From a virus, in IMG/VR virus record IMGVR_UViG_3300049717_000042, positions 1 to 34,641 of that record: a stretch of DNA of 34,641 bases; one strand, 5' to 3'. Shown here one piece after another: positions 7,791 through 34,641 of this stretch (its first letter is position 1; the number at the start of each line of letters is the position of its first letter). The position numbers were made by a program, and so were the translations under genes. The notes beneath the pieces are model-generated. The model saw nothing but the letters and a program-made list of their open reading frames with translations. It ran no database searches and had not been told where the DNA came from.

Positions 7791-7863
7791 TACAATGAGC
7801 GTGTCGGCAGTTGTGTTGCCGCTTTCTCATGCCCCTTCGTCGGACACAACCCGGCGAGGGGGC
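7791..7863 (+). promoter_or_regulatory. Structured leader A of HNH gene A (TACAAT box and two stem-loops)
   Basis: TACAAT lies at 7791-7796 inside GGTGTACAATG, a -10-like box without a recognisable -35. Stem-loop P1 is 7805-7821 (CGGCA/TGCCG, 7-base loop). Stem-loop P2 is 7831-7863: 13 pairs including two G-U, loop ACACAAC. P2 starts exactly 40 bases after the first T of TACAAT, as in leader B at 9227-9299. The rest of 7715-7882 holds the tail tube ribosome site (minus strand) and a GGGCGG/CCGCCC inverted repeat; no gene is seen there. Confidence 0.7.
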
Positions 7864-7882
7864 TATCCATGTGGAGACCACG

Positions 7883-8533
7883 GTGCCCTTCGACAAGAAG
7901 GCTTACAACGCGGCATATCGAGCGGCATACCCCGAGAGAATGCGGGCCGCCAGCGCGCGATGGGCCGCCAATCATCGCGCAGAGAACCGGGCTTGCAGCG
8001 CGGCTTACCATGCGTCTCACCGTGAGGAGGACGCGGCCTACGCCCGAACCTATCGAATGGCCCACATTGACGAGGTTCTGGTTTCCGACCGGTCCTATGC
8101 CGCTGAACGTCGCCCGGCACACCGGGCCGAAGCAAGGGCCTATGCCCTGGCCTATCGGACGGCGCACCCCGAGAAGGTGAAGGCCGATAATCGAGCCTAT
8201 GCTGACGCCCATCGCGAAGAGATAGCGGCGTACCAGGCGGGCTACCGAGCGGCACATGCCGACGCGGCCCGTGAGCATTACCGGAAGGCCAAAGCCATCC
8301 GCCGGGGGGCCGCCCTGTGCGACCATCCGGGCTGTCTGACCATCGGGCCTGACGCTCTCGCCTGGCAGACCAACCCGCATGTCTGCCACCTGTGCGGTAC
8401 GCCCGTCTGGCGTGGTGTGAACCTCCACATGGATCACGTCGTGCCGATCTCTCGGGGAGGTCTGCACTGCGCCGACAACCTGAGGCCGGCATGCGGTCCG
8501 TGCAACGTGCGGAAGGGCGCCCGGGTGGCGTGA
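7883..8533 (+). CDS. HNH endonuclease A with 15-residue tandem repeats (homing type)
   Basis: 216 residues from GTG 7883, six bases after GGAG, matching the layout of copy B; GTG 7871 is an in-frame alternative. Residues 7 to about 145 are roughly eight degenerate 15-residue units (AYNAAYRAAYPERMR, ACSAAYHASHREEDA, AYALAYRTAHPEKVK), helical and strongly basic. The C-terminal 60 residues are an HNH nuclease: CDHPGC, CHLCGTPVW, HMDHVVPISRGG, DNLRPACGPCN, with two Cys pairs for zinc and the DH catalytic pair. It is on the opposite strand to its neighbours, between the tail tube gene and an 80-residue gene. I infer a free-standing homing endonuclease with a repeat DNA-binding arm. Confidence 0.88.
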   Translation: MPFDKKAYNAAYRAAYPERMRAASARWAANHRAENRACSAAYHASHREEDAAYARTYRMAHIDEVLVSDRSYAAERRPAHRAEARAYALAYRTAHPEKVKADNRAYADAHREEIAAYQAGYRAAHADAAREHYRKAKAIRRGAALCDHPGCLTIGPDALAWQTNPHVCHLCGTPVWRGVNLHMDHVVPISRGGLHCADNLRPACGPCNVRKGARVA

Positions 8534-8786: not shown

Positions 8787-9211
8787 GTGATTGCGTCGAT
8801 GGTTGTGGGGAATTTGACGACCAGCTGCCAAAGAGGCTGGCCGGTTCCGGTTGGGGGGTAGGGGTCGTGATCGATCCCGCCCGAGATGACCTGGCTGTGC
8901 CAGATGCCCAGCCCTGACGCGGCCTTGCGGGCCCCGACGTTGCGGAAGACCGCCTCTGCCAGCATCCCAAACGCCTCAGCGTCGGCGTAGGTCGTGCCGT
9001 AGAGCCGGACGTACAGCGTCACGTCCCGGATGGGCATATGCGGGATGGGCGGGCCATCGCCCCAGGACACGACCACGAACCGCTGGAAGGGGGTCTTGGA
9101 GTCGCCCGCTGCCGGCTCGTGTGCGCGGATCCGGTTGGCGCATGTCGAGCCCACGGCGGCCCGCAGTTCGGCGATCGCGGCAGCGATTGGGGAGAGCGCT
9201 TCGGCGGTCAT
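8783..9211 (-). CDS. Tail terminator / tail completion protein
   Basis: 142 residues from ATG 9211. The pattern, a short helical N-terminus followed by alternating strands (FQRFVVVSWGD, DVTLYVRLYGTTYADAEAF, GQPLWQLVVKFPTTID), and the place between the gp10-like gene and the tail tube match the tail terminator family that caps the tail and joins it to the head. Its start codon overlaps the end of an open antisense frame across HNH gene B. The call rests largely on gene order and general fold pattern. Confidence 0.65.
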   Translation of the reverse strand: MTAEALSPIAAAIAELRAAVGSTCANRIRAHEPAAGDSKTPFQRFVVVSWGDGPPIPHMPIRDVTLYVRLYGTTYADAEAFGMLAEAVFRNVGARKAASGLGIWHSQVISGGIDHDPYPPTGTGQPLWQLVVKFPTTIDAIT

Positions 9212-9226
9212 GGCTGCCCCCAGGTG

Positions 9227-9299
9227 TACAATGTGCGGGACGGCAGGCTTGGTGCCGGTTTTCTATGCCCCGTCTTCGGCCAAGCCCCGGAGGCGGGGC
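9227..9299 (+). promoter_or_regulatory. Structured leader B of HNH gene B (TACAAT box and two stem-loops)
   Basis: TACAAT is at 9227-9232 within GGTGTACAATG. P1 is 9241-9257 (CGGCA/TGCCG, loop GGCTTGG). P2 is 9267-9299: 13 pairs with two G-U, loop CCAAGCC. Compared with leader A, pair 6 of P2 changes from U-G to G-C and pair 9 from G-C to U-A, so pairing is kept while both bases change; the P1 and P2 loops also differ. The distance from TACAAT to P2 is again 40 bases. Confidence 0.7.
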
Positions 9300-9318
9300 A
9301 CTCCATATCGGAGAGGCT

Positions 9319-10098
9319 GTGAGAGACCCCGCAGAGCAGAAGGCGTACGACGCGGCTTACCATGCGGCGCACCGCGAGCAAGACAACGCCCGGAGCGCAG
9401 CCTATGGCGCCAGCCACCGAGCCGAGAAGAAGACATACGACGCGGCCTATCGTGCGGCGCATCATGACGAGCGAAGGGCATACGACGCGGCCTATGCCCA
9501 CAGGGACCCGCCGGCGAGGAAGGCGTACTCGGCCGCCTATTACACCGCCCACCGGGCTGCTCTTCTCGCGTCCGCCAACGCCTACCGTCTGGCCCATTTG
9601 GAGGAAGAGCGAGCGAACCACCGCCGCTATCATGCCGCGCATCGGGAGAGGGCCAACGCCCGGCGCAGCGACCATTACGCGATGCATCGCGAGGGCCTGA
9701 GGCCTTACTTTGCCGCTCGCTACATGGCGCACCGTGAGGAGATCAAGGCCTACGGCGCTGCGCGTTACGCGGCGCATCCCGAGAAAAGCAAAGCCACCAC
9801 GGCCGCTTGGCGAGCCGCCCATCCAGACGAGGCGCGCGAACGGGACGGTAGGCACACCGCGCAACGTCGCGGCGCTGTTGCGTGCGAGCATCCGTCCTGC
9901 CTCGCTATCGGTCCTGTAACCCTCGCCTGGCAGACCAACCCGCATGTCTGCCACCTGTGCGGTACGCCTGTCTGGCGCGGCGTGAACCTTCATATGGACC
10001 ACGTCATCCCGATCTCTCGGGGCGGGCTGCACTGTGCCGACAATCTCCGGCCAGCGTGCGCGTTCTGCAATCTGAGCAAGCACAACCGGGTGGCGTGA
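9319..10098 (+). CDS. HNH endonuclease B with eleven 15-residue tandem repeats
   Basis: 259 residues from GTG 9319, preceded by GGAG at 9310-9313. After VRDPAEQK, eleven uninterrupted 15-residue units follow (residues 9-173), such as AYDAAYHAAHREQDN, TYDAAYRAAHHDERR and PYFAARYMAHREEIK. The C-terminal HNH domain (CEHPSC, CHLCGTPVW, HMDHVIPISRGG, DNLRPACAFCN) is nearly identical to copy A. The gene lies antisense between the gp10-like and tail terminator genes; CGGTCAT occurs at both borders (9205-9211 and 10101-10107). I infer a mobile free-standing homing endonuclease. Confidence 0.88.
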   Translation: MRDPAEQKAYDAAYHAAHREQDNARSAAYGASHRAEKKTYDAAYRAAHHDERRAYDAAYAHRDPPARKAYSAAYYTAHRAALLASANAYRLAHLEEERANHRRYHAAHRERANARRSDHYAMHREGLRPYFAARYMAHREEIKAYGAARYAAHPEKSKATTAAWRAAHPDEARERDGRHTAQRRGAVACEHPSCLAIGPVTLAWQTNPHVCHLCGTPVWRGVNLHMDHVIPISRGGLHCADNLRPACAFCNLSKHNRVA

Positions 10099-10706: not shown

Positions 10707-10913
10707 ATGCACGGCAAGATGATCAGCGACATGACGAACGGATACGGCGTCCGCATCCAGACCTTCGATGACGGGTCCTCCGCAGTCGTGGTAGACGAAG
10801 CGACCGCCCTCCGCCGGGAGCGCGCCACCCTCGCCTTCAAGGTCCGCGTCAACAAGGCTCTCGGTGTGGCATCCCCGAAGATGGAAGCCCGCATCGCTGA
10901 ACTGTCCCGGTGA
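10707..10913 (+). CDS. Small hypothetical protein leading the cassette operon
   Basis: 68 residues from ATG 10707 with GGAGA eight bases upstream; its stop overlaps the GTG of the methyltransferase (GTGA). Begins MHGKMISDMTNGYGVRIQTF, then a short beta-like part and a basic helix (ATALRRERATLAFKVRVNKA). No family recognised. The promoter, ribosome site and coupling argue that it is real. Confidence 0.65.
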   Translation: MHGKMISDMTNGYGVRIQTFDDGSSAVVVDEATALRRERATLAFKVRVNKALGVASPKMEARIAELSR

Positions 10914-11605
10914 GCGACAGGCCGCGTCTGCTTGACCTGTTCTGCGGAGCGGGCGGCGCGGCGATGGGATACAGCCGTGCCGGGTTCGAGGTGGTCGGCG
11001 TGGATATCAACCCCCAGCCGCACTACCCGTTCGAGTTTCACTTGGCCGACGCCATGACGTGGCCACTGGACGGTTTCGACGTGATCCACGCCAGCCCGCC
11101 ATGCCAGGCGTTTACCGCTCTCAAGACGATGTACAACGCGAAGCCGCACATCGACCTGCTCACTCCGATGCGCGAACGGCTTGTGGCATGGGGCGGGCCG
11201 TCGGTAATTGAGAACGTGGCAGGAGCCCCGATGGCCGACTATATCCGTCTCTGCGGAACGTCCTTCGGATTGGGAACGGGGGAAGCTGAACTTCGCCGCC
11301 ATCGGTGGTTCGAGGTCAGGCCCGAGCCGCCCTTCCCGCAACCGCAATGCGTCCACGGGGGCCGGTTGGTGATCGGCGTCTACGGCGGACACGGGCGCGA
11401 CCGCCGCCGGATGCGGCCCGCAACCGTTGGGGTCTATGGCAGCGCGGGGGGAACGTGCGTCCGTGACGGAACGCAACAGTTCAGTACCGCCGAGCGGGCC
11501 GAGGCAATGGGCATCGACTGGATGACCGGCAACGAACTCTCGCAGGCCATCCCCCCGGCCTATACCGAATGGATAGGTTGCCGACTGCTGGAGGCTATCG
11601 CATGA
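10910..11605 (+). CDS. Compact DNA C5-cytosine methyltransferase
   Basis: 231 residues from GTG 10910, coupled to its neighbours at both ends. Motif I DLFCGAGGAAMGYSRAGF (residues 9-26) binds S-adenosylmethionine, PPCQAF carries the catalytic Cys65 (motif IV), ENV is at 101-103 (motif VI), RRHRWF is a motif VIII equivalent, and QAIPPAYTEWIG near the C-terminus is motif X. It is much shorter than typical Dcm/M.HhaI enzymes, leaving little room for a target recognition domain; similar compact enzymes occur in phages. It would methylate cytosine in DNA, to evade restriction or protect the target of the linked HNH nuclease. A deletion relic of the same family is at 28385-28579. Confidence 0.88.
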   Translation: MSDRPRLLDLFCGAGGAAMGYSRAGFEVVGVDINPQPHYPFEFHLADAMTWPLDGFDVIHASPPCQAFTALKTMYNAKPHIDLLTPMRERLVAWGGPSVIENVAGAPMADYIRLCGTSFGLGTGEAELRRHRWFEVRPEPPFPQPQCVHGGRLVIGVYGGHGRDRRRMRPATVGVYGSAGGTCVRDGTQQFSTAERAEAMGIDWMTGNELSQAIPPAYTEWIGCRLLEAIA

Positions 11606-11760
11606 CCCTGATCGAAGCCGCCCAATCGCTTGGAGTGACCGCCGACACCTTGCGCCAGCAGATCGCCAACGGGAGACTACGTGCGCGGAAGGTCGGGCGA
11701 GACTGGACCGTGACGCCGCGTGAGGTCGAGCGGTATCGACGGGAGTCGCGGCGTGGCTGA
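11602..11760 (+). CDS. Excisionase / MerR-like helix-turn-helix protein
   Basis: 52 residues from ATG 11602, overlapping the methyltransferase stop by ATGA. The sequence TLIEAAQSLGVTADTLRQQI followed by GRLRARKVGRDWTVTPREVE is the classic HTH_17/excisionase layout: a helix-turn-helix, then a short wing reading G-R-x-W. Proteins of this size act as recombination directionality factors or small repressors. Its end overlaps the start of HNH gene C. It may bind the dyad at 10653-10666. Confidence 0.75.
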   Translation: MTLIEAAQSLGVTADTLRQQIANGRLRARKVGRDWTVTPREVERYRRESRRG

Positions 11761-12304
11761 GGACCCCGCGAAGGTCAAGGCATACCACGCGGCATACCAT
11801 GTCGCGCATCGAGAGGTACACAACGCTCGCAGCGCGGCTTACCAGACTGAACATCAGGAAGACCACGCCCGCCGCAGTACCGCTTATTACGCAGCGCATC
11901 GAGAGGAGTGCTCGGCTCGGGTTATCGCTTACCGCTTGGCCCACCCTGAAGCCGACCGTGCCTACCATGCGGCGCACCGAGACAAACGCAACGCTCAGAC
12001 CAGAGTCTGGTCCACCGCCCATCCTGACCAGCGCCGCGAACAACACCGGAAGGCCACGGCTATCCGGCGTGGTGCCCCGGTCTGCGACCATCCGAGCTGT
12101 CTCACTCTCGGAGCATCGGCGCTCGCCTGGCAAGTCAATCCCCACGCCTGCTACCTCTGCGGGACGCCCGTCTGGCAAGGCGTGAACTTGCACATGGATC
12201 ACGTCATGCCGATCTCTCGGGGAGGGCTGCACTGCGCCGACAATCTCCGGCCCGCCTGCGCGCCGTGCAACATGCGGAAGCATGCCAAGATAATCGCAGC
12301 GTAG
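11753..12304 (+). CDS. HNH endonuclease C with six 15-residue repeats (operon member)
   Basis: 183 residues from GTG 11753, seven bases after GGGAG and overlapping the HTH gene by eight bases. Units such as AYHAAYHVAHREVHN and ARVIAYRLAHPEADR are followed by one 11-residue unit, AYHAAHRDKRN (a four-residue deletion), and AQTRVWSTAHPDQRR. The HNH domain (CDHPSC, CYLCGTPVW, HMDHVMPISRGG, NLRPACAPCN) is close to copies A and B. Unlike them it has no TACAAT/hairpin leader and depends on the operon promoter. A homing or restriction-like nuclease paired with the upstream methyltransferase is inferred. Confidence 0.88.
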   Translation: MAEDPAKVKAYHAAYHVAHREVHNARSAAYQTEHQEDHARRSTAYYAAHREECSARVIAYRLAHPEADRAYHAAHRDKRNAQTRVWSTAHPDQRREQHRKATAIRRGAPVCDHPSCLTLGASALAWQVNPHACYLCGTPVWQGVNLHMDHVMPISRGGLHCADNLRPACAPCNMRKHAKIIAA

Positions 12305-29237: not shown

Positions 29238-30469
29238 CGGGGGTATCGCTCCGTGCACCAGCTACCGTCCGACTGCTTGCCGGAACAGCCGAACTCGCCG
29301 GCATGGGAGACGCGCTTATCGGGACGCATCGCCCAGTTGTGTACCGGGCACGTGGGGGCGGATTGCGGATGTGCCAGGGGGGCGGTTTGCGGCGGGCGCA
29401 GGACGGCCGATTGCGTGGCGACCTCCCCATCGAAGAGGGCCGCCAGTTCGGATGCACTCGGCTCAGGCGGTTCGTTGGAGGCGGGGCCTACCGGCACGAA
29501 CGCGGGCTGCTGCCGTGGTTCCGCGGCTGGGGCGGGCGTTGGAGCCGGTACGTCTTCGAACAGCGCGGGTCCGGCTTCGGCCACGTCGCGGGAGTCGCCC
29601 TCGATCACGCCGTCGGCGTCAACCTGACGCCCGTCGTCAGTCGCAGCGACCACGGGCGCCTGCGCGGCCGCACGGGCCACGGCCGGGGGTGCCTCGTCCA
29701 CCATGCCGAAGGTCCCGCGGGCGTCTGCCTGTGCGGCCTGCTCGTCATCCTGCACCGACCGCTCCGCGCTGTCGGTTTTCCCGGCCTTGATTGCGGCACC
29801 GAAGACTGAGCGGAACGATGGGGCCGGGAGGCGGGCGCCCAGCGGGTGGGTGCCCGTGCGGTCTTTCAGGATCTGCGCCTCTCGCGCGTCCGCGCCTACC
29901 GGGGCCAGCCGGATCACGGTGTCGAAGAAGTAGGCCGTGCCCTTTTCGGCATCGGGTCGCACACCGACCTTGACCATCTCGGAGCCCTTGCGCTCCGTGT
30001 CGTCTCGCTCGCGCGCGACCACGATCACATGGACCGGGAGGTTGACGAGGGCGGTCATGAGGCTCTTGTACCGGCGTTTGATCTGCTGCCAGTCGAGCAT
30101 CTCAAGATCGGCGTCGGGATCGTGCCGCTTCCCGGCCCGCTTGACCTGTGCCGCGTCTTGCAGCGTTTCGTAGATCACCGTCACCGGATCGATGACGAGC
30201 GTGGCGTAGGCCGTAGGGTTGGCCGCGATGTACTCGACAGCGTTCTGCACGTCGGCGAAAGTCTTGGTCGGCAGAACGTCGAAGGGATTCAGCCCGCCCT
30301 TGCCGATGCGCTTGGCGTAGAAGGCCGTCCCGCCCTCAGTGTCGATAACCGCGATCTTGCCGGGCGAGGTCAAAGCGAAGTAGGTCTTGCCTACGCCGCT
30401 CGCACCGAACAACAGGACTTTGACCTTTGGGGCAGCCTGGTCGGCGGGGTGGAATGGGTTAGTCGGCAT
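29234..30469 (-). CDS. Sak4-like RecA-family recombination ATPase with C-terminal zinc motif
   Basis: 411 residues from ATG 30469, overlapping the nuclease gene by 11 bases. KVLLFGASGVGKTYFAL carries Walker A (22-29), IAVIDTEGGTAFY follows as in AAA_24/Sak4 proteins, Walker B is ATLVIDPVTVIYE, and HVIVVARERDDTERKG matches the sensor region. Sak4 proteins are single-strand annealing/recombination ATPases of phages. After about residue 250 a long disordered acidic linker leads to CPVHNWAMRPDKRVSHAGEF and C....SDGSWC, a likely zinc finger. With the adjacent PD-(D/E)XK nuclease it forms a two-gene recombination module. Confidence 0.8.
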   Translation of the reverse strand: MPTNPFHPADQAAPKVKVLLFGASGVGKTYFALTSPGKIAVIDTEGGTAFYAKRIGKGGLNPFDVLPTKTFADVQNAVEYIAANPTAYATLVIDPVTVIYETLQDAAQVKRAGKRHDPDADLEMLDWQQIKRRYKSLMTALVNLPVHVIVVARERDDTERKGSEMVKVGVRPDAEKGTAYFFDTVIRLAPVGADAREAQILKDRTGTHPLGARLPAPSFRSVFGAAIKAGKTDSAERSVQDDEQAAQADARGTFGMVDEAPPAVARAAAQAPVVAATDDGRQVDADGVIEGDSRDVAEAGPALFEDVPAPTPAPAAEPRQQPAFVPVGPASNEPPEPSASELAALFDGEVATQSAVLRPPQTAPLAHPQSAPTCPVHNWAMRPDKRVSHAGEFGCSGKQSDGSWCTERYPR

Positions 30470-31307
30470 CGATGATCTCCTCCAAGACGTAGCCGCGCCA
30501 CGCGGGACAAGCGGCAATGACGGGGCAATCGCCACAGGCGAACGGCGCGCTGCGGCCGTTGGGCAGATGCTGCCCGGTAGCGTCGAGCCATCCGCGAACG
30601 TGCTCGCGCCGCGCGACGGTTCGGGCCAATTCGTCAAGCTCAGTCGGCCCGCGCCGGGACCGTTGACGGTCGTACCACGGCTTCACGGCATCGGGCTGCC
30701 AGGACTTCACGTCAGACGGCGGGTTGGCGTAGATCAGCCCGTCGAGCCCGACAGGCATCGCTTGGACGCCGTGGGCCTCGCGCATCGCCCATGCGTACCA
30801 GGTGAGCTGTTCGTCCGTGTCGGCGCGGTTGGTCGGCAGCCGCTTTTCGCTCGTCTTGAGATCGATCAGCGAGCCGTCGTCGAATACCACGTCGAGATGG
30901 GCGTGGCAGACGATGCCCTCATGCTCCCAGTGGATTTCGTATTGGTAGGCGTAGACCGGCGGGTAGGTCGGCCAAACCCGATCCGTCCAGAGAGTCAGGA
31001 GCGCGGCGACTTTCTCGGTCATCTGGGCGTGCCGCTCAGTGGGGATGCCTTCGGCCAGGCCGAGTTGTGCCACGATGCCCGCCACGTCCGGCTTTCGGCC
31101 TGCGAGAACGACGCCGATCGCCTCGTCTGTGGCGGAGCCTTCGACCATGACCCGAGACGCTTTCGGTCGGGCGAGCCCCTGCCGGTACAGCGCGTCGCGG
31201 AACTGGCACTCGTCAAAGCCGCGGTCGCTGGAGTAGCTCCGATGCGTCGTGTCCGTGCAGCGGGGAGTGGTCGGCAGGACGATGCCGGGGACTGCGATGG
31301 CGGTCAT
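30459..31307 (-). CDS. PD-(D/E)XK nuclease, RecB/Cas4-like
   Basis: 282 residues from ATG 31307 (ATGA). VCHAHLDVVFDDGSLIDLKT contains Asp139, Asp149 and Lys151, the D...DxK catalytic set, followed by QLTWYAWAMREA, the QxxxY motif of RecB-type nucleases. One Cys near the N-terminus (FDECQF) and three at the C-terminus (CGDCPVIAAC) could hold an iron-sulphur cluster as in Cas4/AddB. Probable 5'-3' or 3'-5' exonuclease supplying single strands for the Sak4-like partner. Confidence 0.83.
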   Translation of the reverse strand: MTAIAVPGIVLPTTPRCTDTTHRSYSSDRGFDECQFRDALYRQGLARPKASRVMVEGSATDEAIGVVLAGRKPDVAGIVAQLGLAEGIPTERHAQMTEKVAALLTLWTDRVWPTYPPVYAYQYEIHWEHEGIVCHAHLDVVFDDGSLIDLKTSEKRLPTNRADTDEQLTWYAWAMREAHGVQAMPVGLDGLIYANPPSDVKSWQPDAVKPWYDRQRSRRGPTELDELARTVARREHVRGWLDATGQHLPNGRSAPFACGDCPVIAACPAWRGYVLEEIIDAD

Positions 31308-31618
31308 AGCGCAGCGAGCCATTCCACGATCGCCCGGTTGTGGATCGGCGCCCAGTGGTCATGGTGTCCGTCACACAGGCAGACGACCCGATCCCGCGCC
31401 GTGACTCGCCGCGTACCGACCTTGATCCCGGCGTGGTGCCTCTGGATTGGCCCGTCGCAGGGTCCGGCATCCGGGTCGATATCCAAGGCTCGGCAGCCGT
31501 GCCGTTCCGGGGCGGCTCGCTCGTCGCGCTCGGTGACATCCCAATAGACCCGCTGATCCTCGGCGGCGCTCTGCCTCTTGCGCGGCTGACGGATGGGGGC
31601 TGGACAGAGGGCAATCAC
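31304..31618 (-). CDS. Small HNH-like zinc protein
   Basis: 104 residues from GTG 31618 (GTGA). GPCDGPIQRHHAGIKVGTRR followed by VVCLCDGHHDHW is the compact C..C...HH...C.C..HH arrangement of short phage HNH-like nucleases, with Asn near the end (HNRAIVEWLAAL). Catalytic function is likely but unproven. It is coupled to the nuclease gene and may belong to the recombination module. Confidence 0.6.
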   Translation of the reverse strand: MIALCPAPIRQPRKRQSAAEDQRVYWDVTERDERAAPERHGCRALDIDPDAGPCDGPIQRHHAGIKVGTRRVTARDRVVCLCDGHHDHWAPIHNRAIVEWLAAL

Positions 31619-31968
31619 ATCGGCTCCAGGAAGTAGCGGGCCGTCATCCGGGCCTTGCGCTCAGTCCTGATCGAATGTCCGGCCTGCCGGAGTTGGAACA
31701 CGCGGGCGCCGGCCCGATAGCAGCCGATCCGTCGCAGCGCATCGAGCGCGCTGACACCCTCTGTACCGGCCTCAGTGAGTAGCGCGAGCATCGCCCGCGT
31801 CTGTGGCGGCTGGAGGTCGGGAGACGCGGTAGCGTGGCTGCTACCCGTTACCAAGGCGTAACCGGCCCGGTGGGCGCGGACGCGGCAGGCGGTATCGCAG
31901 TACTGGCGATCCTTCCGGGCCGATTGAGGCAGCGCTCGGGCACAGGCAGCGCATCGACGGCGGATCAT
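31615..31968 (-). CDS. Zinc finger plus helix-turn-helix (HTH_39-like) protein
   Basis: 117 residues from ATG 31968 (ATGA). The N-terminal CAACARALPQSARKDRQYC followed by ACRVRAHR is a small Cys4 finger often seen in phage and plasmid proteins. The C-terminal AMLALLTEAGTEGVSALDAL, RRIGCYRAGARVFQLRQAGH and SIRTE form the winged helix of the HTH_39 type, common in phage regulatory or replication proteins. Probable DNA-binding regulator. Confidence 0.65.
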   Translation of the reverse strand: MIRRRCAACARALPQSARKDRQYCDTACRVRAHRAGYALVTGSSHATASPDLQPPQTRAMLALLTEAGTEGVSALDALRRIGCYRAGARVFQLRQAGHSIRTERKARMTARYFLEPM

Positions 31969-32168
31969 CGGATCGCTCGCAGGACTACCCAGACGCGCCG
32001 TAGAGCGGCTAGCTGCTGTCGCTGCGCGTCTGCCCGGTTTGCGGCCGATAGCCGCTCGTAGAGGGTCGCGCTCTGCGTGCGAAGACGCTGCCAGCGGTTG
32101 CGGTCCTTCCACGCCGTCAGCATCTCGGTCGTGATTGCCGACCGCCCTGGGTATCGTTCGGGGTTCAT
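31965..32168 (-). CDS. Basic helical protein, 67 residues
   Basis: ATG 32168 overlaps the stop of the HNH-AP2 gene. Starts MNPERYPGRSAITTEMLTAW and continues as a basic helix (RLRTQSATLYERLSAANRAD; RRVWVVLRAI). The first ten residues recur in the short remnant at 32742-32792 on the other side of the HNH-AP2 gene. Function unknown. Confidence 0.55.
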   Translation of the reverse strand: MNPERYPGRSAITTEMLTAWKDRNRWQRLRTQSATLYERLSAANRADAQRQQLAALRRVWVVLRAIR

Positions 32169-32650
32169 TCGGCGCCCCCTTCCAATACGTTCAGCCAAGC
32201 GAAAGGACCGTAGATGGCGGACGCCGCCTCGTTGTATGCGCGAGCGGCGTCAGCCTCCGATGTGAAGCGTCCTATGTAGCCTTGCGGCTGTATCGCTGCC
32301 CGCCACGCGCCCCTGTCCCACGAGACGCCCTTGAAACGCGAGGATCGGGTGCCGCACTTGCGGCGGTGGGCGTTGTTCTGCCCGGCCGACGCCGGCCGCA
32401 GGTTGCAGCGGCGGTTATCGAGGCCGTCGCCGTTGATGTGGTCTAGCCCGCGTTTGCCTAGAACGGCGCAGTGCATATATTCAAGACGCGATCCCGGGGT
32501 CCCACGGCTGACGCACCGGCGGGCATACCAGAGTTCGTGACCGTCCCGCCCCACGCGGCACGATGCGTGCCACTTCAGGATCGCCAAGCGCGGGTAGTCG
32601 TCCTCATCAACTAGGGCGACCTTGCCCTGGGTCAACGGGATTTCACGCAT
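32165..32650 (-). CDS. HNH homing endonuclease with AP2 DNA-binding domain
   Basis: 161 residues from ATG 32650. REIPLTQGKVALVDEDDYPR is the NUMOD-like N-terminal strand region. MHCAVLGKRGLDHINGDGLD, NRRCNLRPASAGQNNAHRR is the HNH core. SSRFKGVSWDRGAWRAAIQP, GYIGRFTSEADAARAYNEAA and AIYGPFAWLN is a complete AP2 domain. This fusion is a well-known free-standing phage homing endonuclease. A 14-bp tandem duplication precedes the start. It separates a gene-start remnant (32742-32792) from a full homologue (31965-32168). Confidence 0.93.
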   Translation of the reverse strand: MREIPLTQGKVALVDEDDYPRLAILKWHASCRVGRDGHELWYARRCVSRGTPGSRLEYMHCAVLGKRGLDHINGDGLDNRRCNLRPASAGQNNAHRRKCGTRSSRFKGVSWDRGAWRAAIQPQGYIGRFTSEADAARAYNEAASAIYGPFAWLNVLEGGAE

Positions 32651-32652
32651 GT

Positions 32653-32680
32653 CTGCAAGTCCTCTCCTGCCAGTCCTCTC
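32653..32680 (-). repeat. 14-bp tandem duplication carrying the ribosome site of the HNH-AP2 gene
   Basis: On the minus strand GAGAGGACTGGCAG is followed immediately by GAGAGGACTTGCAG, one mismatch in 14. Each unit contains a GAGAGGA Shine-Dalgarno-like stretch; the proximal one ends about 9 bases before ATG 32650. The rest of 32681-32741 has a CGGCGGA/TCCGCCG inverted repeat and no gene. Confidence 0.7.
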
Positions 32681-32741
32681 ACGATTAGTTCGGCGGAAGC
32701 GGAGAACTTGCAGGATCGACACCTCCGCCGATAGTGTCATT

Positions 32742-32792
32742 CTACCACTCGCAGACGATCACGGAGCGGCCGGGGTAGCGCTCGGGTGTCAT
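32742..32792 (-). pseudogene. 16-codon gene-start remnant (MTPERYPGRS)
   Basis: ATG 32792 overlaps the upstream stop (ATGA) and reads MTPERYPGRSVIVCEW then TAG. The first ten residues match MNPERYPGRS at the start of the gene at 31965-32168, and the DNA is similar over about 30 bases. It looks like a leftover 5' end of the same gene family, separated from its homologue by the HNH-AP2 insertion. Confidence 0.6.
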
Positions 32793-33208
32793 GCGATGGC
32801 CTCGACTCCGTGGTCGGAGGCGTAGACGAACAGCCAACCGAGCACGTCACAGGCCCGGCTAGAGTCGTCCCAACCGATGCGGTAGGGCAGTGGGCTGAGC
32901 CATCCCCGCTCGTGGTATTCGTAGTGCTTGACGGTGCCGGTGAGTTCCGGGTGGCGGATAGACCGGCACCGGTCGCCGGGCGCGAGCTTCGGGGCGTAGT
33001 TCTCGGGATGGGCCACGGCATCCTGATCCCGCCAGCATTCGCACGCGCGCCAGTTGTGAGCGAGCCGCTTGCAGTTGCCCCGGCCGTCCTTTCGAGGAAC
33101 CGGGACTTCGATCATGTAACTCGATGCACAATGTCCAGCGCGATCGCCCGAACGGTTCAGGTGCGCGCTAATGTCGTGCCCGCAGTCCAGACAGGCGATG
33201 TCAGCCAC
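32789..33208 (-). CDS. Hypothetical protein with N-terminal Cys/His knuckle
   Basis: 139 residues from GTG 33208, overlapping the previous gene by eight bases. N-terminal CLDCGHDISAHLNRS and later GHCASSY, NCKRLAHNWRACECW could bind one or two zinc ions. The C-terminal half (GDRCRSIRHPELTGTVKHYE, then RIGWDDSSRACDVLGWLFVY) reads like a small beta barrel. No family name recognised. Confidence 0.55.
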   Translation of the reverse strand: MADIACLDCGHDISAHLNRSGDRAGHCASSYMIEVPVPRKDGRGNCKRLAHNWRACECWRDQDAVAHPENYAPKLAPGDRCRSIRHPELTGTVKHYEYHERGWLSPLPYRIGWDDSSRACDVLGWLFVYASDHGVEAIA

Positions 33209-33856: not shown

Positions 33857-34039
33857 GTTTTCTAACTCGGGGACGGTCCGAGAGCGAGCCCGAGGATCAG
33901 GGCGCCCCACAGCAGCAGGGCGATCGCCACCGCGGACGCCGACGGTCTGAGTGCAGCGGCGCGGCGCGGTGGAGGTGGGCCAGCCCGACTCAGACACCCC
34001 GAAGTAGGGGATGGGCAGGCGAGCTTCGCAGGTGCTCAT
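33836..34039 (-). CDS. Hypothetical protein, MSxCEARL family member 2 (possibly frameshifted)
   Basis: 67 residues from ATG 34039 (ATGA). MSTCEARLPIPYFGVSESGW and RRCTQTVGVRGGDRP align with the start of the protein at 33201-33518, but after VGVR the two diverge and this one ends in Arg/Pro-rich sequence. The +1 frame from the same place encodes ASAVAIALLLWGALILGLAL, a convincing membrane helix ending at TAG 33864-33862. Either the gene is a decayed copy or a frameshift joins the two frames. Confidence 0.45.
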   Translation of the reverse strand: MSTCEARLPIPYFGVSESGWPTSTAPRRCTQTVGVRGGDRPAAVGRPDPRARSRTVPELENGPGSLA

Positions 34040-34641
34040 GCTGTCGTCTTCCGGGTCCGCTTCGGCTTGGCTGCAGTGATAGCCCCAAAGATCGAGGTGC
34101 CGTCCCAAGTGCAGACGGGGCATTCGAGGGCGTGGGGCTCGGCCAGGGCGGCGTCGTACGCCTTCCGGGGCTCGGCCAGGGCGGCGTCGTACGCCTTCCG
34201 GGACTCGGCCAGGGCGGCGTCGTACGCCTTCTGGGGCTCGGCCATGGCGGCGTCGTACGCCTTCTGGGACTCGGCCAGGGCGGCGTAGTACGCCTTCTGG
34301 GGCTCGGCCATGGCGGCGTAGTACGCCTTCCGGGGCTCGGCCATGGCGGCGTCGTACGCCTTCTGGGACTCGGCCAGGGCGGCGTAGTACGCCTTCTGGG
34401 ACTCGGCCAGGGCGGCGTAGTACGCCTTCTGGGACTCGGCCAGGGCGGCGTAGTACGCCTTCCGGGGCTCGGCCAGGGCGGCGTCGTACGCCTTCTGGGA
34501 CTCGGCCAGGGCGGCGTAGTACGCCTTCCGGGGCTCGGCCATGGCGGCGTCGTACGCCTTCTGGGACTCGGCCAGGGCGGCGTAGTACGCCTTCTGGGAC
34601 TCGGCCAGGGCGGCGTCGTACGCCTTCTGGGACTCGGCCAG
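34036..34641 (-). CDS. Protein with fifteen 11-residue repeats (N-terminus beyond window)
   Basis: Open from the right edge to TGA 34038-34036, 201 codons visible. The first 165 residues are fifteen tandem 11-residue units of the form KAY(D/Y)AA(L/M)AE(S/P)(Q/R). The C-terminus is LAEPHALECPVCTWDG, then a basic tail ending KPKRTRKTTA; CPVC may bind zinc. An 11-residue period suits a hendecad coiled coil, but Pro in about half the units would kink it. No family recognised; a structural or sponge-like role is only a guess. Confidence 0.7.
   Translation of the reverse strand: MAESQKAYDAALAESQKAYYAALAESQKAYDAAMAEPRKAYYAALAESQKAYDAALAEPRKAYYAALAESQKAYYAALAESQKAYYAALAESQKAYDAAMAEPRKAYYAAMAEPQKAYYAALAESQKAYDAAMAEPQKAYDAALAESRKAYDAALAEPRKAYDAALAEPHALECPVCTWDGTSIFGAITAAKPKRTRKTTA
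34147..34641 (-). repeat. 33-bp tandem repeat array, 15 copies to the window edge
   Basis: The unit, as written on the plus strand, is GTACGCCTTC followed by (C/T)(C/G)GGG(A/G)CTCGGCCA(G/T)GGCGGCGTMG. Units differ by one to four bases: TAC/GAC at the second aromatic, CTG/ATG, TCC/CCC and CAG/CGG. The array runs off the right edge, so copy number is unknown. Confidence 0.95.

Follow-up and report, generated by a model that had tools for sequence, protein, structure and literature searches.

Diverged copies of one gene start on both sides of an HNH-AP2 endonuclease gene in a virus genome suggest insertion with repair of the invaded gene

Introduction

How can an endonuclease gene settle at the very start of another gene and leave that gene complete? 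The question is raised by a virus record of 34,641 bases (referred to as the window), in which two similar gene starts lie on either side of a gene for an HNH-AP2 endonuclease. The accessible portion of PMC2988022 describes free-standing homing endonucleases as located between genes or as splitting genes. For the window, a sequence-only reading had suggested a homing event in which the element supplied a downstream gene start of its own, the old 5′ end of the invaded gene being left behind as a micro-ORF.

Results

The locus is read from the minus strand. The upstream neighbor gene (32789..33208), encoding a 139-aa protein with no Pfam or PHROG matches, ends in a TGA that overlaps the ATG at 32792 of a 16-codon ORF in the form of ATGA. 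This ORF (32742..32792, MTPERYPGRSVIVCEW, stop codon TAG at 32744-32742) could be aligned to the intact gene start described below up to about codon 12-15 and is taken as the remnant of the native gene start. It is followed by a leader of about 90 nt (32651..32741) and by the HNH-AP2 endonuclease gene (32165..32650). The longest ORF of the latter begins at 32740; alignments with homologues from named phages begin at the first residue encoded from the ATG at 32650, so that the HNH gene probably starts at 32650 and the leader remains after the micro-ORF. In the leader, CUGCAAGUUCUC was predicted to pair with the purine-rich stretch immediately 5′ of the HNH ATG (z = −1.5, a modest value), and this predicted stem may sequester the ribosome-binding site of the HNH gene.

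The TGA of the endonuclease gene overlaps, again as ATGA, the ATG at 32168 of a 67-codon gene (31965..32168, stop codon TGA at 31967-31965) with a product beginning MNPERYPGRSAITTEM, its start also given as MNPERYPGRSAITTEMLTAWKD. The TGA of this gene overlaps in the same manner the probable ATG at 31968 of the next downstream gene (31615..31968), which encodes a Pfam HTH_39 winged-helix domain. Sequence alignment identified the first codons of the 67-codon gene (32133..32168, MNPERYPGRSAI) as a diverged copy of the start present in the remnant; they are considered the carried copy, and the gene itself the restored target. A Shine-Dalgarno-like sequence, GGAAGGGGG, is located within the last HNH codons (32175..32183), a position that would suit service of the carried gene start. 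The two similar starts around the HNH-AP2 gene reported by the sequence-only reading, at ATG 32792 and ATG 32168 on the minus strand, were thus confirmed together with their ATGA coupling, as each ATG overlaps the stop codon of the preceding gene.

The window nuclease matched phrog_99 with an E value of 9.9e-28 and could be aligned end to end with HNH proteins of three named phages. Its Pfam matches were below the thresholds, with 17.3 bits for HNH_3 (cut-off 24.8) and 20 bits for AP2 (E = 8.5e-4, curated threshold 33.3 bits). Both features of HNH-AP2 (IPA-HNH) proteins, the HNH motif and a C-terminal AP2 domain, were found; D70, H71, and N79 are invariant among nine aligned HNH proteins, and the reading frame of the window nuclease is intact. 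Site-specific cutting and homing are putative activities of this protein. At the gathering score, Rfam gave no matches in the window and the nine case loci of the survey described below, so that no known group I intron surrounds the HNH gene in any of these.

Elsewhere in the window, three plus-strand ORFs (7811-8533, 9121-10098, and 11720-12304) have apparent HNH C termini, assigned by reading, and imperfect N-terminal repeats of the AYxAAYRAAHPEE type. A minus-strand ORF of 64 codons (28579-28385) looks like an internally deleted copy of the plus-strand gene at 10910-11605, which we take from its motifs to be methyltransferase-like; it has the same start motif and C-terminal part, with 117 of 147 nt identical, and lacks the middle. 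An array with a 33-nt period encoding 11-residue repeats (AYDAALAEPRK or AESQK type) occupies positions 34034-34641 and reaches the end of the contig.

Over 12 aligned codons, the two window copies of the gene start have four identical, six synonymous, and two replaced codons. At the DNA level, 26 of 36 nt are identical over these codons and 24 of 32 nt in the region of the starts. The synonymous changes leave PERYPGRS unaltered. The start peptide of the 67-codon gene scored 59 upstream of its own HNH gene, and the maximum upstream of the HNH genes at the 248 other loci was 32; among 690 six-frame tiles of the window, the two copies alone scored above 33 against it. Homology of the copies ends at the gene edge. 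In the leader before the window HNH gene, likeness to the body of the 67-codon gene was no better than in shuffled sequences in all three frames, and a second copy running past the shared edge, as would be a feature of tandem duplication, was absent from the window.

A codon test gave no indication of deliberate recoding of the carried copy: with an observed difference of 6 nt versus 5.8 nt expected for random codings of the same peptide, the window copies differ no more than random codings do. Synonymous sites look saturated rather than specially recoded. The divergence is better accounted for by two lineages that evolved apart as coding genes than by a fresh local duplication. Since both copies appear to have diverged as coding sequence, the old copy probably died only recently.

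For the 67-aa target protein, no relatives were found in viral contigs, named phages, and genome contigs (two matches at E = 9 were disregarded), and for the 139-aa neighbor none in viral contigs and named phages; the records nearest to the window were possibly outside both searches. A degenerate pattern of the gene start gave three matches, all of them unrelated once read, and no relatives were found for the gene at 30459-31322. The window terminase identified two near-identical fragments, and neither record matches the repeat region. As no relative of the 67-codon gene was found, no empty site was seen for the window, and the support for an insertion comes from local anatomy and analogy. Nor was the pattern seen that would speak for ordinary duplication, in which both genes are complete and lack an intervening HNH gene.

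In a survey of other HNH loci, both flanks of each HNH gene were compared for a shared peptide. The first set comprised 223 loci including the window, 195 of which were distinct and usable; a second set of 56 loci, drawn from phrog_99 positions of these virus records, provided 54 usable loci. Those dropped before counting (28 of 223 and 2 of 56) were repeats of an HNH gene already included or had short flanks, and 20 of the 56 second-set loci matched phrog_99 less strongly (E = 1e-18 to 2e-6) and may be without AP2. Clear repeats of a target-gene edge across the HNH gene were found in 10 of the 249 distinct loci (about 4%), the window included, where "clear" refers to score and position at the edge of a neighboring gene and is in part a judgement of position and frame; about 239 of the 249 loci had no counted repeat. 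The clear cases comprise seven gene starts (window, L054, L117, L102, L145, L305, and L286) and three gene ends (L119, L078, and L292). Common to them is that the edge of the target gene is repeated, with the outer copy cut short and the inner copy continuing as the gene. The window appears to belong to a small class of HNH loci.

Individual cases vary in their arrangement. In L305, the old start MSESPFRPAAKEA shares its reading frame with the nuclease, into which it continues, and there is an 8-nt overlap between the nuclease stop and the new start MTESPFRPAAKEAVKARIALTGPSGSGKS. The target gene of L145 is on the opposite strand, and L117 contains an open frame of 564 codons. In L286, the nuclease and the carried start are separated by a small ORF (about 1610-1800) that apparently overlaps the stop codon of the nuclease gene; this extra ORF is not predicted by the simplest insertion unit, and the carried segment may comprise an entire small gene. 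Two further observations concern translation across the junctions. As the remnant start of L305 is in frame with the nuclease (947-1480), nuclease translation from the start codon of the invaded gene may be possible. In L145/L147, the frame of the remnant is open for 229 codons, beyond the remnant and into the antisense of the nuclease gene.

Three possible cases (L016, L090, and L151) were kept outside the count of ten. Loci L158, L221, L086, L194, L134, L052, L009, and L024 were set aside by eye as GC-rich or low-complexity and not located at a neighboring-gene edge, and L158, L221, and L086 fall out of the top 30 under masking; L319, L320, L321, and L323 were set aside by eye in the unmasked comparison for being GC-rich or low-complexity and not at a gene edge. 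Uncounted rows at p < 0.05 in the first set include L130 and L232, and L227 and L138 are also outside the count. The flanks of seven further ORFs in the window, of which six were read as HNH-like, gave best scores of 28 to 48, which by eye came from low-complexity stretches.

Controls were performed with mispaired flanks and pseudo-inserts. Without masking, 2 of 4000 mispaired flanks reached a score of 62 and none of the 4000 reached the scores of L119 (66), L145 (69), or L054 (74); the unmasked scores of L102, the window, and L117 (58-60, window 59) are exceeded by the same 2 of 4000 mispairs. In a stricter run with low-complexity (compositional) masking and 250-nt flanks, 4 of 195 loci (L054, L119, L117, and the window) scored at least 50, versus 1 of 370 pseudo-inserts (score 53) and none of 3000 mispairs. 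The masked window score of 54 was reached by none of the 3000 mispaired flanks and none of the 370 pseudo-inserts. Masked scores were 41 for L145 (reached by 5 of 370 pseudo-inserts) and 38 for L078 (8 of 370), and L102 dropped out, its alanine-rich downstream copy being hidden by the mask. These three loci were assigned by position and reading frame, L078 additionally by its relatives; the L145 remnant was found independently by protein search (E = 4e-8). The three clear cases among the last 54 loci scored 91, 62, and 57, the nulls being those for first-set loci only.

Other phages have this anatomy at genes unrelated to the window target, and for two of the gene-start cases, L054 and L305, the relatives that were read are uninterrupted and have no such HNH gene nearby. 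For the L054 target, which had no PHROG match and no matches in named phages, three relatives (54, 39, and 38% identity) were found, each of them one open frame. The insertion in L054 sits before a CGPxALAAI-like stretch, and all three relatives read through that stretch without interruption. Sequences similar to the L305 target were present in 245 named-phage records, with an AAA-ATPase annotation in many of the listed rows. In the three of these that were read (Che8, Jabbawokkie, and Mantra), the AAA-ATPase starts with MSLSFKPATREASYARIAL or MSLSFKPATREASYARIALSGPSGSGKT and has an ATGA overlap with the upstream gene. The six uninterrupted loci (three relatives each of L054 and L305) gave no tblastn matches to the window or L054 HNH; in Jabbawokkie and Mantra, another annotated HNH gene is found two genes downstream of the AAA-ATPase.

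With regard to the gene ends, the L078 target is annotated as an ASCH domain protein in two Klebsiella phages, and the three relatives that were read end with NPWVWVIEF plus a few residues, the motif that is repeated in L078. Searches with the L117, L102, and L145 targets in 50 virus records each identified the case loci or identical copies alone, plus the L145 remnant, and neither the L117 nor the L102 target gene had a tblastn match in named phages.

A step in base composition was present in L054 and L145 only. In L054, the GC content is 64% for the remnant, 47% for the HNH gene, 36% for the carried start, and 67% for the gene body, and the corresponding values in L145 are 72, 43, 53, and 57%. 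The window has no clear composition step (remnant 69%, HNH gene 65%, carried start 61%). In 12 cases (the ten clear ones plus L151 and L016), GC3 of the carried copy was below that of the remnant in nine, equal in two, and above in one, all values being derived from short stretches. Among the four start cases examined for translation signals, a Shine-Dalgarno-like sequence was found within the HNH end in the window, L054, and L117, and directly at the HNH stop in L102. Predicted RNA structure was slightly stronger before HNH starts than before downstream genes (p = 0.015), an effect too weak to build on.

Discussion

We assign a probability of roughly 80% to the reading that the 67-codon gene was invaded at its 5′ end by a free-standing HNH-AP2 homing endonuclease element and restored by a diverged start. 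The inserted unit would comprise the leader, the endonuclease gene, and, at the 3′ end of the latter, a diverged version of the first dozen or so target codons; the final endonuclease codons contain a sequence resembling a ribosome-binding site. The native gene start would have been left upstream as a dead 16-codon ORF, and the target gene would now be read from the carried start, ATGA-coupled to the endonuclease stop. In an element-free phage, the nuclease would cut near the gene start, and the break would be repaired from an element-bearing, diverged relative, with homology being used on the gene-body side and the other junction being joined without replacement of the old start. The synonymous differences may render the carried copy a poorer substrate of the nuclease. 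The proposal that the element brought a downstream start and turned the old 5′ end into a micro-ORF is probably right, supported as it is by the local anatomy and by analogy.

The repeat taken alone, for which no relative of the 67-codon gene was available, is also compatible with a tandem duplication, in which the HNH gene landed in the first of two paralogues with a common start and most of this first copy was then lost. Such a history appears improbable given that no trace of a gene body precedes the HNH gene, at whose stop the intact copy starts, that repeats confined to the edge recur at unrelated genes, and that the relatives of L054 and L305 that were read have one uninterrupted copy at the locus. 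Direct repeats flanking an insert would likewise result from a transposase-like insertion with target-site duplication. Target-site duplications are short and identical at origin, whereas the window copies are identical at 26 of 36 nt with a conserved protein sequence, and the HNH gene is the sole enzyme gene within the insert, which leaves this origin hardly credible.

The 16-codon ORF might instead be a functional leader peptide or coupling ORF, with its motif resembling the 67-codon gene by chance; the maintained ATGA coupling and the unchanged PERYPGRS despite synonymous change would fit such a role. We regard this as very improbable, as the ORF corresponds to the beginning of the 67-codon gene and sits in an equivalent junction, and the remnants elsewhere derive from other genes and vary in both sequence and length. 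A transfer of the remnant, HNH gene, and carried start jointly as a block from a donor, with the remnant dating from an earlier event in a different phage, is a version of the preferred explanation that differs in the time and place of the event. It would fit the available part of PMC2988022, in which free-standing endonucleases are said to cut at sites distant from their own gene and to move flanking DNA. In L054, however, the remnant resembles the surrounding phage DNA in composition, and the leader, HNH gene, and carried start alone depart from it; we consider a block transfer rather unlikely.

Beyond the insertion of an element with its own replacement start at this locus, the chances seem about even that the phage HNH-AP2 endonucleases comprise, among others, a class of natural home-and-rescue elements. 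These would invade conserved first or last codons, repair the gene by a re-spelled edge, hold the ribosome-binding site in the last nuclease codons when located at gene starts, and escape recutting. Engineered home-and-rescue drives pair a cutter with a recoded copy of its target, and the elements would, if the proposal is true, be a natural parallel to these. If a class of elements enters coding sequence and mends it by means of a diverged edge, this would explain low-cost access to conserved sites, and such elements would swap gene starts between distant phages. As remnant and replacement together form a readable signature of the likely target and insertion point, the specificity of an uncharacterised nuclease becomes directly testable.

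The literature search recognised no phage study of carried gene starts, and an earlier description elsewhere is possible. The nuclease itself has the same domain architecture (HNH plus AP2) as the IPA-HNH homing endonuclease genes of phages, for which the accessible text describes no duplicated target-gene edge, unlike the window (PMC10448857). Insertion of a free-standing endonuclease into a host gene is also known from the T4-type mobE/nrdA and mobA/gene 39 pairs; as far as the available text describes them, the host gene is there split into two polypeptides and not restored as proposed here (PMC2988022).

There is a close likeness in anatomy to the mobile ORFs (mORFs) of fungal mitochondria, for which the available sections of PMC3630166 describe gene hybrids in atp6, atp9, cox2, and nad3 of Glomus sp. 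and Allomyces. As in the window, an endonuclease ORF resides in a gene, with a diverged replacement edge on one side and the native remnant beyond the ORF on the other. The carried edge of mORFs has 64-81% DNA identity to a close relative versus 91-98% for the native edge and diverges far more in DNA than in protein, according to the same sections (PMC3630166). The two systems differ in that the mORFs described there replace gene ends (C termini), with a LAGLIDADG ORF in the case of atp6 (PMC3630166), whereas the replaced edge is the gene start in the window and mostly so in the phage loci studied here, with an HNH-AP2 nuclease.

Among phages, the ShiLan domain, an HNH insertion in a mycobacteriophage DNA methylase, has a similar repeat: in the available text, the authors report that the first 11 residues of the insertion resemble the 11 after the insertion site (PMC11855218). 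We located these copies in ShiLan gp65 as SYEPVCVAVKPYGVT and AFEPIVVARKPLAGT, with a score of 36 in a self-comparison without a null. The ShiLan HNH differs in having zinc fingers and in lying out of frame inside an open methylase frame, an open frame of which the long antisense-running frame in L145/L147 is reminiscent; as far as the available text goes, its authors consider signatures of introns and inteins, and a carried gene edge is not part of their description (PMC11855218). A carried edge may also explain the repeat that was left open for the ShiLan methylase insertion.
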